The notes under the pieces are model-generated. The model ran no database searches. It was given only the letters and a program-made list of their open reading frames with translations, and was not told the origin of the DNA. Positions 1 through 48,848 of a DNA stretch of 53,935 bases are shown here, piece by piece. Source of the DNA: Candidatus Uhrbacteria bacterium RIFCSPHIGHO2_12_FULL_60_25. GTDB lineage: Bacteria > Patescibacteriota > Patescibacteriia > 2-12-FULL-60-25. The stretch is taken from positions 38,934 through 92,868 of the forward strand of contig MGEH01000004.1 of the NCBI GenBank assembly GCA_001791275.1, read 5' to 3'. The translations under genes were made by a program, and so were the position numbers. Every line of letters begins with the position of its first letter. The first letter of the stretch is position 1.

Positions 1-237
1 CGGCATGACGATATATGAATCCAAACGCACATGTTTGTAATGTTTTGGAACGTCTTTTAACGATTGTTTCGCGATATACCCAAACCGACTCAACACCATC
101 TTTCCATCAACGACGTCGCCGAAGACGCACTGTCTGTTTTTCACGCAAATCGTTATGAAATACCAACCCGGCACCGAATAATCGTAGTCGGGCATGCGGA
201 TTGATCTGCGGCCTCGGAATTCCCAGGTAAATGTCAT
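1..237 (-). mobile_element. Partial REP-associated tyrosine transposase (RAYT, Y1_Tnp/IS200-like), N-terminus only, cut by window edge
   Basis: My own translation of the reverse complement: MTFTWEFRGRRSIRMPDYDYSVPGWYFITICVKNRQCVFGDVVDGKMVLSRFGYIAKQSLKDVPKHYKHVRLDSYIVMP. It matches the RAYT N-terminal pattern RRSIRxxxYDYSxPGxYFITICxxNRxCxFGxxxxGxM...LDxxxxMP. Not in the ORF track because it has no stop inside the window. Confidence 0.85.
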
Positions 238-305
238 GCATATATATTCAGTCTCAAATAGATGTCGTCGCGTCAAGGCCTGTTTTTTCCGCTCCATTGC
301 GATAA

Positions 306-5032: not shown

Positions 5033-5057
5033 TTTGCCCCGGCCTAAACGGCCGGGG
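5033..5057. terminator. Hairpin downstream of tRNA-Leu
   Basis: GCCCCGGCCtaaacGGCCGGGGC stem-loop. Confidence 0.6.
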
Positions 5058-5325
5058 CTTCGGTTGGCACAGCCATCGTATCAGGGAGAAGGTGTCGTTT
5101 TACAAAGGCGCATCCTGATCCAGATTTCAAATAGTGTTCGAATTGAGCCGCCTGTCTGATATTCGGAAACGCACAAAACCAAACCAGACCGTAGTTGCCG
5201 TTCTTTCTTGCCGTTGTCCGCGATATCTTCGAGTGATGCTCTTTGAGCCTGCGCCGCAGATCACGGGTCCACCCTTTATAGAGTGTACCGTCGAGACGAT
5301 GCTGGAGAATGTAGACGTAGATCAT
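5044..5325 (-). CDS. GIY-YIG domain small nuclease-like protein
   Basis: MIYVYILQHRLDGTLYKGWTRDLRRRLKEHHSKISRTTARK: GIY-YIG core (YVYIL / LYKGWT). Confidence 0.85.
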   Translation of the reverse strand: MIYVYILQHRLDGTLYKGWTRDLRRRLKEHHSKISRTTARKNGNYGLVWFCAFPNIRQAAQFEHYLKSGSGCAFVKRHLLPDTMAVPTEAPAV

Positions 5326-5371
5326 ACACTTTCATTCAGTACCACATTCCTTTTGGCCGTGCCATCCGAAG

Positions 5372-20938: not shown

Positions 20939-20946
20939 ATACTGCG

Positions 20947-21522
20947 TCATCCCGAGCGTAGGGCCGTCCGACGGCCCGGAGCCGAGGGACAGTTTTCAGA
21001 CATCTAGATCTTCGTCTGATCGTGGCAGGAATAGCGTCAGATCAATCCAAGGCGGATTGAGCGACCCGATGAGTCGTTTTTTCTTCTCCCGTCTCCAGCC
21101 TTTGATCTGCTTTTCACGTTCAATTGCTTCTCCCGGCGTGTCATGGATTTCGAAATAGACTAATTTCGTGCACTGTTTTTCAGTTGTGAAGCCACGATTC
21201 AGTTTCATTCTATGCTGGACAACCCGATCGTAAAGATTATTCGTCACCCCGATATAGAGCACTCCGATGTCACTTGCCAGGATGTACACGTACATATAGT
21301 CAACCGGTGTCCTCATCCGTTCGATGAGTGATGCGAGATAGAGCTTGGAGGGCTCGTCGAGGAGGCCTAACGCATTTGAAAACTGTCCTTCGGCTTCGGG
21401 CCGTCGGACGGCCCTACGCTCAGGATGACACATGGGCGGGGCACTCGTCTGGGATGACGTTAATGTTCGCAAGGTCATATCTATTCAGTCTCAAACATAA
21501 AACCACACGTCAAGTGTGGATA
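20947..21522 (-). mobile_element. Composite element: GIY-YIG gene flanked by inverted REP-like repeats plus conserved 5' leader
   Basis: Left GTCATCCCGAGCGTAGGGCCGTCCGACGGCCCGGAGCCGAGGGACAGTTTTC; right, inverted, AACTGTCCTTCGGCTTCGGGCCGTCGGACGGCCCTACGCTCAGGATGACAC; leader TTGACG-N12-TTTGAGACTGAAT on the minus strand. Confidence 0.7.
20996..21295 (-). CDS. GIY-YIG nuclease family protein (frame open to an upstream ATG at 21478)
   Basis: MYVYILASDIGVLYIGVTNNLYDRVVQHRMKLNRGFTTEKQCTKLVYFEIHDTPGEAIEREKQIKGWRREKKKRLIGSLNPPWIDL. Confidence 0.93.
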   Translation of the reverse strand: MYVYILASDIGVLYIGVTNNLYDRVVQHRMKLNRGFTTEKQCTKLVYFEIHDTPGEAIEREKQIKGWRREKKKRLIGSLNPPWIDLTLFLPRSDEDLDV

Positions 21523-42080: not shown

Positions 42081-42503
42081 TCAGACGACGGTCAGTCCCA
42101 TCTGCTTGGCCGTGCCTTCAACCTGCCGCATGGCGGCTTCGACCGTAGCGCAATTCAAGTCAGGCAGTTTCTTTTCGGCGATCTCCCGGATCTGGGCCTT
42201 CGTGACCTTGCCCACCTTTTCCTGGAGCGGTTTGCCCGAGCCCTTCGTGATCCCGGCGGCCTTCTTCAGCATCTCGGCCACCGGCGCGATTTTCAGGATG
42301 AAGCTGTACGTGCGGTCTTCGTATACCGTCATGACGAGCGGCACCACCTCGCCGCGGCGTTGCGCCGTGGCGTCGTTGAATTTCTTGCAGAACTCGGCGA
42401 TGTTCAGCCCCTGGGGGCCGAGCGCCGTACCGACCGGAGGGGCCGGGGTGGCGGCACCACCGATGATTTGCAGCTTGATGATTGTCTTTACCTTTTTTGC
42501 CAT
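42081..42503 (-). CDS. rplK: 50S ribosomal protein L11
   Basis: [46 protein letters not shown]. Confidence 0.97.
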
Positions 42504-42509
42504 AGGGAT

Positions 42510-42577
42510 TGAGTGCTTGTGTGCATGAGTGCTTGTGTGCGCGAAATTTCCTCGCACTCAAGCACTCAAGCACTTTT
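42510..42577. repeat. GAGTGCTT tandem hairpin
   Basis: GAGTGCTTGTGTGCATGAGTGCTTG...CGCACTCAAGCACTCAAGCACTTTT. Confidence 0.8.
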
Positions 42578-45702: not shown

Positions 45703-45734
45703 TTAAAGGTTAATCAAGACTGATACAAGAGAGC

Positions 45735-45794
45735 AAAAGTGCTTGAGTGCTTGAGTGCGAGAAGCTCCATGCACTTAAGCACTCAAGCACTTTT
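45735..45794. repeat. AGTGCTTG tandem hairpin
   Basis: AAAAGTGCTTGAGTGCTTGAGTGCG...GCACTTAAGCACTCAAGCACTTTT. Confidence 0.85.
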
Positions 45795-46717: not shown

Positions 46718-47818
46718 ATGCGCTGGACCCACACATTCGTCCGACTGGACTGGGTGATGCTGCTCACCGTCCTGACCCTCATTTCGGTCGGGCTCGTGGT
46801 GATGTACGGCATCGGCATCTCGCGTCCCGAATCAAGCTTGTTCCTGTTCCAGAAGCAGCTCGTCGGGGCGGCGATCGGCGTCGTCATCATCGTGGGCATG
46901 GGATTCCTCGATTACCGCCAGCTGCGCGGCCTCGCGATTCCGATCTACGGGATCGGGGCGGCTCTGCTTACGTCCGTCCTCGTCTTCGGCCAGACGATCC
47001 GCGGCACCAAGGGATGGTTCGTGCTCGGAGGACTGTCGTTCCAGCCCGTCGAGGTCGCGAAGCTCTGCCTTATCGTGTTCCTCGCGTCGTACCTGTCGCG
47101 TTACGTCCACCGATCCATCCCGTGGCAGGCGCTCGCGGGGAGCTTCCTTGCGACCGCGCTCTATGCGATCCTCGTCCTTCTCCAGCCGGACTTCGGGTCG
47201 GCCATGGTGATGGTGGCGGTGTGGGCCGCGCTCGTCCTCTTCGTGGGGGTCTCGTGGCGGAACGCTGTCGTCTTGGTCCTGCTCGGCTCGGTCATCGCCG
47301 GGTTCGCCTGGTCATTTCTCCTGAAGCCGTACCAGCGCACGCGGTTCCTCGCGTTCGCGAATCCCGCGCTCGATCTGCGCGGCGCCGGCTACAACGTCAC
47401 CCAGGCGCAGATCGCGATCGGGAGCGGCTGGTTCTTAGGCAAAGGGGTGGGGGAAGGGTCGCAGGCGCGATTGCGGTTCCTTCCGGAAGCAGCGACGGAT
47501 TTCACGTTCGCCGTCGTCGGCGAAGAGCTCGGATTCGTGGGAATCACGTTCGTCCTCGGGCTCATGGGCTTACTCTTTTACCGTTTCACCCGTATCGCCA
47601 CGGAAGCGGAAGATGACTTCGCCGCGCTCGTCATCCTCGGGATCGGCGCCCTCTTCCTGGTCCACGTGACCGTGAATGCGGGGATGAACCTGGGCGTGAT
47701 GCCCGTGACCGGCATCCCGTTCCCGTTCCTGTCCGCCGCCACGTCATTTCTCCTCGCCATGGCGCTCGCGCTCGGCATCGCGGAGAGCGTGGCGGTGCGT
47801 AGGAGAACGCTTGCTTGA
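46718..47818 (+). CDS. rodA: SEDS-family peptidoglycan glycosyltransferase RodA/FtsW
   Basis: RGTKGWFVLGGLSFQPVEVAKLCLIVFLA...GKGVGEGSQARLRFLPEAATDFTFAVVGEELGFVG...GVMPVTGIPFPFLS. Confidence 0.93.
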   Translation: MRWTHTFVRLDWVMLLTVLTLISVGLVVMYGIGISRPESSLFLFQKQLVGAAIGVVIIVGMGFLDYRQLRGLAIPIYGIGAALLTSVLVFGQTIRGTKGWFVLGGLSFQPVEVAKLCLIVFLASYLSRYVHRSIPWQALAGSFLATALYAILVLLQPDFGSAMVMVAVWAALVLFVGVSWRNAVVLVLLGSVIAGFAWSFLLKPYQRTRFLAFANPALDLRGAGYNVTQAQIAIGSGWFLGKGVGEGSQARLRFLPEAATDFTFAVVGEELGFVGITFVLGLMGLLFYRFTRIATEAEDDFAALVILGIGALFLVHVTVNAGMNLGVMPVTGIPFPFLSAATSFLLAMALALGIAESVAVRRRTLA

Positions 47819-47916
47819 TGGATTACGAATTACGAATCTCCTACGAATATACAAAAATACGAAATCATTTTCGTACATTCGTATATTCGTAGGAGATTCG
47901 TAATTCGTAATCCATC
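47817..47916. repeat. Hairpin A, 36-bp arms, GATTACGA-type heptamers
   Basis: GATGGATTACGAATTACGAATCTCCTACGAATATAC / GTATATTCGTAGGAGATTCGTAATTCGTAATCCATC. Confidence 0.95.
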
Positions 47917-47958
47917 GTAATTTGTAACCATTCTCTGCGCTTGCTATAGTCCGTATGT

Positions 47959-48285
47959 ATGAGCACCCCCTCCGCGCCGAAGATCCTCGCCCACTGTCCG
48001 CTATGCCAGACGGCGTATGAGGATCGCGCGATCCGGCTCCTCGGGGCGCAGGGAGCGTCCCGGATGTTTCATTTGACGTGCGCGTCCTGCCGCCACGCGG
48101 TGCTCGCCGTCATTCTTGAGAATCAACATGGCATCAGTTCCGTCGGTCTCGTGACGGATATGGAGGCGCAGGACGCGCTCCGTATGCACGACGTGGCGCC
48201 CATCACGGCGAACGACTGTGTGGCCGCGCACGAGGTCCTCGAATCGAAAAGCCGAGAGGTGGTGCAAAAGTTACTTCAAACCTGA
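47959..48285 (+). CDS. Zinc-ribbon-like small protein, copy 1
   Basis: CPLCQ...CASC Cys pairs; identical to copy 2. Confidence 0.75.
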   Translation: MSTPSAPKILAHCPLCQTAYEDRAIRLLGAQGASRMFHLTCASCRHAVLAVILENQHGISSVGLVTDMEAQDALRMHDVAPITANDCVAAHEVLESKSREVVQKLLQT

Positions 48286-48384
48286 TGGATTACGAATTAC
48301 GAATCTCCTACGAATATACGAATCTACGAAATTGAATTCGTAATTTAGTATATTCGTAGGAGATTCGTAATTCGTAATCCATCG
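48284..48384. repeat. Hairpin B
   Basis: Same arms as A, interior identical to C. Confidence 0.95.
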
Positions 48385-48425
48385 TAATTTGTAACCATTC
48401 TCTGCGCTTGCTATAGTCCGTATGT

Positions 48426-48752
48426 ATGAGCACCCCCTCCGCGCCGAAGATCCTCGCCCACTGTCCGCTATGCCAGACGGCGTATGAGGATCGCGCGATC
48501 CGGCTCCTCGGGGCGCAGGGAGCGTCCCGGATGTTTCATTTGACGTGCGCGTCCTGCCGCCACGCGGTGCTCGCCGTCATTCTTGAGAATCAACATGGCA
48601 TCAGTTCCGTCGGTCTCGTGACGGATATGGAGGCGCAGGACGCGCTCCGTATGCACGACGTGGCGCCCATCACGGCGAACGACTGTGTGGCCGCGCACGA
48701 GGTCCTCGAATCGAAAAGCCGAGAGGTGGTGCAAAAGTTACTTCAAACCTGA
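48426..48752 (+). CDS. Zinc-ribbon-like small protein, copy 2 (identical)
   Basis: Identical sequence at a 467-bp offset. Confidence 0.75.
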   Translation: MSTPSAPKILAHCPLCQTAYEDRAIRLLGAQGASRMFHLTCASCRHAVLAVILENQHGISSVGLVTDMEAQDALRMHDVAPITANDCVAAHEVLESKSREVVQKLLQT

Positions 48753-48848
48753 TGGATTACGAATTACGAATCTCCTACGAATATACGAATCTACGAAATT
48801 GAATTCGTAATTTAGTATATTCGTAGGAGATTCGTAATTCGTAATCCA
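48751..48848. repeat. Hairpin C
   Basis: Same arms and interior as B. Confidence 0.95.

Follow-up and report, generated by a model that had tools for sequence, protein, structure and literature searches.

A short leader that precedes several mobile-type genes in this genome is probably a promoter class dedicated to natural transformation and single-strand DNA processing in the Uhrbacteria family, one that is also carried by mobile single genes. In its own genome the leader consists of TTGAC, 18 bases, nACTGAAT and an ATG 4 to 8 bases further on; this architecture, the spacing, the set of genes that follow and the lineage-specific form of the second box are read directly from the genomes. We propose that the promoter would keep an ordinary −35 box (TTGAC) and ordinary spacing, with TATAAT replaced by a lineage-specific −10 box, which in the window's genus is nACTGAAT and in other genera is GGCAGCNGTA or GGAACGTGGT. 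It would drive dprA, comFC and recQ as well as RAYT, GIY-YIG, four-helix-bundle, DUF559, ORF6N and PemK-like genes, and these would be switched on jointly by a factor that reads the −10 box, probably a competence-induced protein, either an alternative sigma factor or a sigma accessory factor. Competence is our best guess for the inducing condition, because DprA and ComFC are core components of DNA uptake (com) across Patescibacteria and natural transformation has been proven in Saccharibacteria (PMC10633639). Mobile genes and DNA-uptake genes have this promoter in common, and its key sequence differs among genera in step across all of them; this suggests that the mobile genes are timed to DNA uptake.

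The window (the whole stretch of 53,935 nucleotides that was analysed) contains three exact matches to the 13-mer TTTGAGACTGAAT, all on the minus strand (246-258, 21483-21495 and 33672-33684; features in Table 1). A genome-wide search allowing at most one mismatch gives seven matches, versus none for a reversed-pattern control. The initial annotation had noted that the 40-mers at 21483-21522 and 33672-33711 agree at 39 of 40 positions, and they do; the identity is a copy effect, since both belong to one GIY-YIG element. It had also placed TTGACG-N12-TTTGAGACTGAAT before the RAYT gene, and there the spacing is indeed identical to that of the other two window copies; translation of this gene probably begins at the second ATG (235-237), which follows the box by 8 bases. 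The leader precedes a GIY-YIG gene, as had been stated, at 21483; at 33672 an internal-deletion derivative follows instead. A CCACAC/GTGTGG hairpin described with these leaders is intact at the 21483 copy, but is disrupted in the 33672 copy (GTGTAG) and at L001 (GTGGGG), and RAYT leaders are without it; we rejected it as the conserved unit because it is intact in few copies.

Two window genes exceed the PF01541 cut-off (20996-21478 and 5044-5325). The first of these starts 4 bases after the box, and its frame crosses one palindrome before reaching the nuclease domain (amino acids 62-133). The remnant at 33362 has no Pfam match and fails PF01541. The 79-residue fragment at the edge of the window has no Pfam or NCBIfam match, and is called a putative RAYT by its resemblance to L010 and L246, full-length homologues that match NF047646 with E-values of 3e-17 and 4e-15 (62.9 and 55.9 bits; the curated cut-off is 80). 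An Rfam search of the window and the dprA loci returned only tRNAs. Other repeats are also present in the window. A 467-nucleotide tandem duplication (47816-48848) holds a 108-residue ORF twice (47959-48285 and 48426-48752), the two copies lying between three 100-nucleotide palindromes GATGGATTACGAATTACGAATC..., and an octamer, TGAGTGCT, is repeated in tandem and inverted in intergenic DNA (42502-42577, 45728-45794 and 50766-50823).

Table 1. Features of the window, and sites of the leader in its own genome
Feature	Position	Strand	Basis
−35 box TTGAC of partial RAYT gene	272..276	-	sequence, spacing
−10-position box GAGACTGAAT of RAYT gene	246..255	-	motif search
Partial putative RAYT gene, 79 aa in window	1..237	-	start ATG 8 bases after box
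TACTGAAT box before second GIY-YIG gene (5044-5325), without clear TTGAC, degenerate	5334..5341	-	score 8.5
TATCCACA, DnaA-box-like (TTATNCACA) element adjoining −35	21515..21522	-	
−35 box TTGAC of GIY-YIG gene	21509..21513	-	
−10-position box GAGACTGAAT of GIY-YIG gene	21483..21492	-	
GIY-YIG gene, 160 aa	20996..21478	-	PF01541, E 5e-16
REP-like palindrome, element's upstream copy	21377..21432	.	93% complementary to 20943-20998
REP-like palindrome, inverted downstream copy	20943..20998	.	
TTATCCACA, DnaA-box-like element	33704..33712	-	
−35 box TTGAC of GIY-YIG element remnant	33698..33702	-	
−10-position box GAGACTGAAT of remnant	33672..33681	-	
Internal-deletion derivative of GIY-YIG element	33362..33667	-	frame from ATG 4 bases after box
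Own-genome sites, GIY-YIG	C4, C6, C18		
Own-genome sites, GIY-YIG element remnant	C4 (twice), C15		
Own-genome sites, RAYT	C4, C9, C27		
Own-genome site, RAYT remnant	C2		
Own-genome site, four-helix-bundle (IVP)	C36		
Own-genome site, comFC	C28		

The unit that is conserved is shorter and more general than the leader first described: TTGAC-N18-nAC[T/G/C][G/A]AAT with an ATG 4 to 8 bases further on, the spacer being unrelated among unrelated genes. The pattern TTGAC-N18-NACNRAAT-N3..8-ATG gives 13 rows in the window's own genome, corresponding to 12 distinct sites, versus none in the reversed control. Three congeneric genomes have 3, 1 and 5 matches, and eleven genomes from other genera have one between them; the reversed controls match nowhere in the genus and once overall. 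Ordinary promoters of the genus are visible as TTGAC-N18-TAnnWT, 35 times versus 4 for the reversed pattern; hence only the −10 box is unusual, and the −35 box and its distance from the −10 box are those of the host's ordinary promoters, TTGAC-N18 occurring in both classes. In standard promoter geometry an ATG 4 bases after the box is at +1, which would imply a leaderless mRNA, and we infer that transcription begins at the ATG or only a few bases away and yields mostly leaderless messages. The initial annotation had offered a common promoter or a common end recognised in mobility. There is good support for its first option: the two boxes keep a fixed spacing, that of ordinary promoters in this genome, unrelated genes have the boxes in common but not the spacer, and the predicted start of transcription is close to the ATG.

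Within its own genome, 11 of the 12 sites are located before RAYT, GIY-YIG or four-helix-bundle (IVP) genes or their remnants, and one before comFC. Near-matches precede a PIF1-like helicase gene (G000, L048; one extra spacing base), one more IVP gene (with TTGCA) and a gene that starts with GTG and encodes a 143-residue protein of no recognised role. PIF1-like helicase genes were also seen just downstream of the GIY-YIG gene at L109 (G015) and L095 (G031). Congeneric genomes have the site before IVP, GIY-YIG and RAYT genes. When 817 kb from two genomes were scanned with a matrix, 14 sites with an ATG reached a score of 11 or more (control, 0); the majority are at GIY-YIG, RAYT or IVP genes or remnants, one is at comFC and one at a tyrosine recombinase gene. 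A general promoter type, as the initial annotation had recognised, should be found just as often upstream of housekeeping genes; in those 817 kb, not one ribosomal, metabolic or other core gene had a good site at its start codon. The genes downstream of the motif are of mobile type, as first described, and also non-mobile, chiefly for DNA uptake and recombination, which had not been foreseen.

Since dprA of the window's own genus is without the box, the competence link in this genus rests on comFC of G000 and on the shared architecture. Apparent sites upstream of dprA in the genus, with scores of 19 to 21, were rejected because they fall within the coding sequence of the preceding gene (AMRDWIE). 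The comFC gene of G003 likewise has no box. In G001 (L011, G001:C8) the box is followed by a palindrome-flanked GIY-YIG gene and then by comFC, an order that may reflect insertion of the GIY-YIG element into the promoter region of comFC. A hairpin of ~75 nucleotides with the loop GGGCTGGAGGGG lies upstream of dprA in four of four genomes of the genus (L151, L156, L338 and L155). Its predicted stems hold despite sequence differences and it has no Rfam match; it is possibly an attenuator or other cis-regulatory RNA.

The same gene classes in other genera follow TTGAC-N16-GGCAGCNGTA or TTGAC-N16-GGAACGTGGT. GGCAGCNGTA was found at the second-box position upstream of the same gene families, and GGAACGTGGT upstream of dprA in G005 and G014. 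Searching 41 genomes of the family in full with the box and ATG (or GTG) alone provides an independent test of the −35 box. Among 42 distinct matches to GGCAGCNGTA-ATG in the 41 genomes, TTGA[C/A] lies 16 bases upstream in 24 and 17 bases upstream in three, and at any other of 29 offsets three times in total. For GGAACGTGGT it lies at 16 bases in 9 of 28 matches and at no other offset up to 30. (A search for GACKGAAT-ATG without the −35 box is too loose outside the window's genus.) Box type is confined to its own lineage in samples from four genomes; G014 has DprA, RAYT, IVP and DUF559 genes all under GGAACGTGGT.

These sites stand before conserved genes of DNA uptake and recombination. GGCAGCNGTA or GGAACGTGGT precedes dprA in eight genomes (G005, G007, G013, G014, G015, G025, G031 and G034), and the site is found before comFC in two (G000, with its own box, and G004) and before recQ in two (G004 and G024). 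In G015, G031 and G034, dprA starts ~120 bases after the box. Four DprA proteins that were checked score above the TIGR00732 cut-off and one RecQ above that of TIGR00614; two ComFC proteins match TIGR00201 below its cut-off. Sites with a −35 box in other genera also precede GIY-YIG, RAYT, IVP, DUF559, ORF6N, NYN and PemK-like genes, as well as a few members with no known DNA link (predicted proteins of 283 residues in G005 and 333 residues in G014, and one coiled-coil protein). No comEC or pilus gene was recognised among the exact-box whole-genome matches. Scanned with TTGAC-N16-GGCAGCGGTA-N5-ATG, 85,488 species genomes gave 23 matches, 15 in the Uhrbacteria family and eight elsewhere. All 15 family matches, many of which come from genomes already searched and so are not fully independent, precede DprA, RecQ, GIY-YIG, RAYT, ORF6N or PemK genes; the eight outside the family equal our own estimate of chance (~8) and none precedes such a gene. 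Viral contigs had no match to the window's motif, and their matches to GGCAGCGGTA were discounted as lying inside long reading frames.

Transcription from these sites, the leaderless start, its timing and a trans-acting reader of −10 that coordinates the genes are what we infer from the pattern as a whole. Two candidate readers, RpoD and one ECF sigma, occur in every box-bearing genome tested, and no other sigma factor does; no patchy ECF sigma is common to all of these genomes. The shared ECF gene lies in an operon with a gene for a putative DUF5667 protein. We do not accept this universal ECF sigma as a proven reader, its own promoter being ordinary-looking. Its region 4 helix is conserved and its region 2.4 differs in the window's genus, a pattern that fits a reader role but that relatedness alone could give. 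RpoD may instead read these promoters with the help of a lineage-specific protein bound at the −10 region, a reading that differs from ours in the reader only, with the promoter the same. This has a real chance of being correct, if clearly short of an even one: the −35 box and spacing are identical to those of ordinary promoters, and the ECF distribution just described agrees with it, but activators rarely replace a −10 element, and the A at −11 of the 17-base spacer is kept in all three box types, as sigma region 2 needs.

It is unlikely, though worth weighing, that the sites form a general alternative promoter, for stress or SOS for example, in which case dprA, comFC, recQ and the mobile genes would be only one portion of a wider regulon. 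Some of the genes have no obvious role in DNA processes, and RecQ and the PIF1-like helicases would suit repair as well as competence. The sequence TTATNCACA, which we take to be the DnaA-box consensus, occurs 0 to 3 bases before the −35 box at ~10 of 59 sites, four of these being copies of one element, with 0.03 expected from background. It adjoins the −35 box in unrelated genes (L001, L003-L005, L007, L030, L198, L200, L009 and L020) and could tie the promoters to replication state. Against such a broad regulon, dprA and comFC are found with the site in more than one genus, the matches include no recognised uvr or lexA gene, and the UvrC upstream regions that were examined are without the box.

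The other option of the initial annotation, in which a transposase recognises the leader as the end of a single mobile element family and that family acquires various genes (RAYT, GIY-YIG and others), now appears very improbable. In its favour, GIY-YIG genes are situated in units flanked by inverted REP-like palindromes (20943-21522 and 33360-33711 in the window, and L001, L005 and L006), four copies have ~40 bp around the leader in common, and deletion copies keep it: the copy at 33672 has lost ~200 bp with the nuclease domain and retains its ends, L006 is another deletion copy, and L001 is reduced to leader and palindromes. RAYTs, too, are transposases, and the elements lie between inverted palindromes. 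However, the site is not confined to the element and its boundary. A transposon end is unlikely because unrelated genes that are not mobile have the site too; dprA, comFC and recQ largely refute it, and four-helix-bundle, DUF559, ORF6N and PemK genes also carry it. The spacer is unrelated in different genes, the −10 box follows the host lineage and not the element, and L006 retains the element with a different −35 box and spacer. Two side observations concern the element itself: the same palindrome recurs at 36152-36209 and 53852-53911, and internal-deletion copies that retain their ends resemble non-autonomous elements. Lastly, it is hardly credible that the likeness is due to chance or marks a promoter type in general use in this genome: loose-box patterns do give scattered matches in nearly all genomes, but the 13 rows (12 distinct sites) face a control of 0, the spacing count is 27 versus 3, and ordinary promoters have TAnnWT.

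Many mobile single genes of these bacteria may travel with their own competence promoter and be expressed only when single-stranded DNA enters, and −10 specificity may have switched at least twice in one family, in host and mobile genes together. We offer this tentatively, its chances being a little below even. It would explain the abundance of single RAYT, GIY-YIG and four-helix-bundle genes in such small cells, would tie mobile DNA to DNA uptake, and would show the speed with which the −10 box can change across the whole gene set of one promoter class. With a sequence signature for the regulon, genomes alone would suffice to test it. The literature searched, which covers part of the field, contained no account of how natural transformation is regulated in Patescibacteria, no report of this promoter class there, and no promoter common to RAYTs, other gene families and competence genes.

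The nearest known system is the ComX regulon of Streptococcus, in which late-competence promoters carry the −10-type box TMCGAATA near the transcription start of dprA, comEC, ssbB, coiA, radC and other genes, and in which an IS630 transposase and pseudogenes derived from a gene annotated as a recombination-promoting nuclease or transposase are also ComX-regulated (PMC6560143). The likeness lies in a dedicated −10-type box at dprA and in the inclusion of mobile-type genes. The Streptococcus motif has an upstream T-rich stretch, whereas the Uhrbacteria sites have a fixed TTGAC −35 box at ordinary spacing; their boxes are nACTGAAT, GGCAGCNGTA and GGAACGTGGT with TTGAC, not TMCGAATA with a T-rich stretch, and no ComX homologue was identified. 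Moreover, the Uhrbacteria −10 sequence varies with genus, the set is dominated by mobile genes, and the starts look leaderless. RAYT and REP/REPIN systems are similar in that putative RAYTs related to NF047646 are present here and inverted palindrome pairs flank the GIY-YIG elements; they differ in that the Uhrbacteria promoter is common to RAYTs, other families and competence genes. Ordinary RpoD promoters of the same genome share TTGAC and the spacing, and differ in having TAnnWT where these have nACTGAAT, usually with an ATG within 4 to 8 bases.
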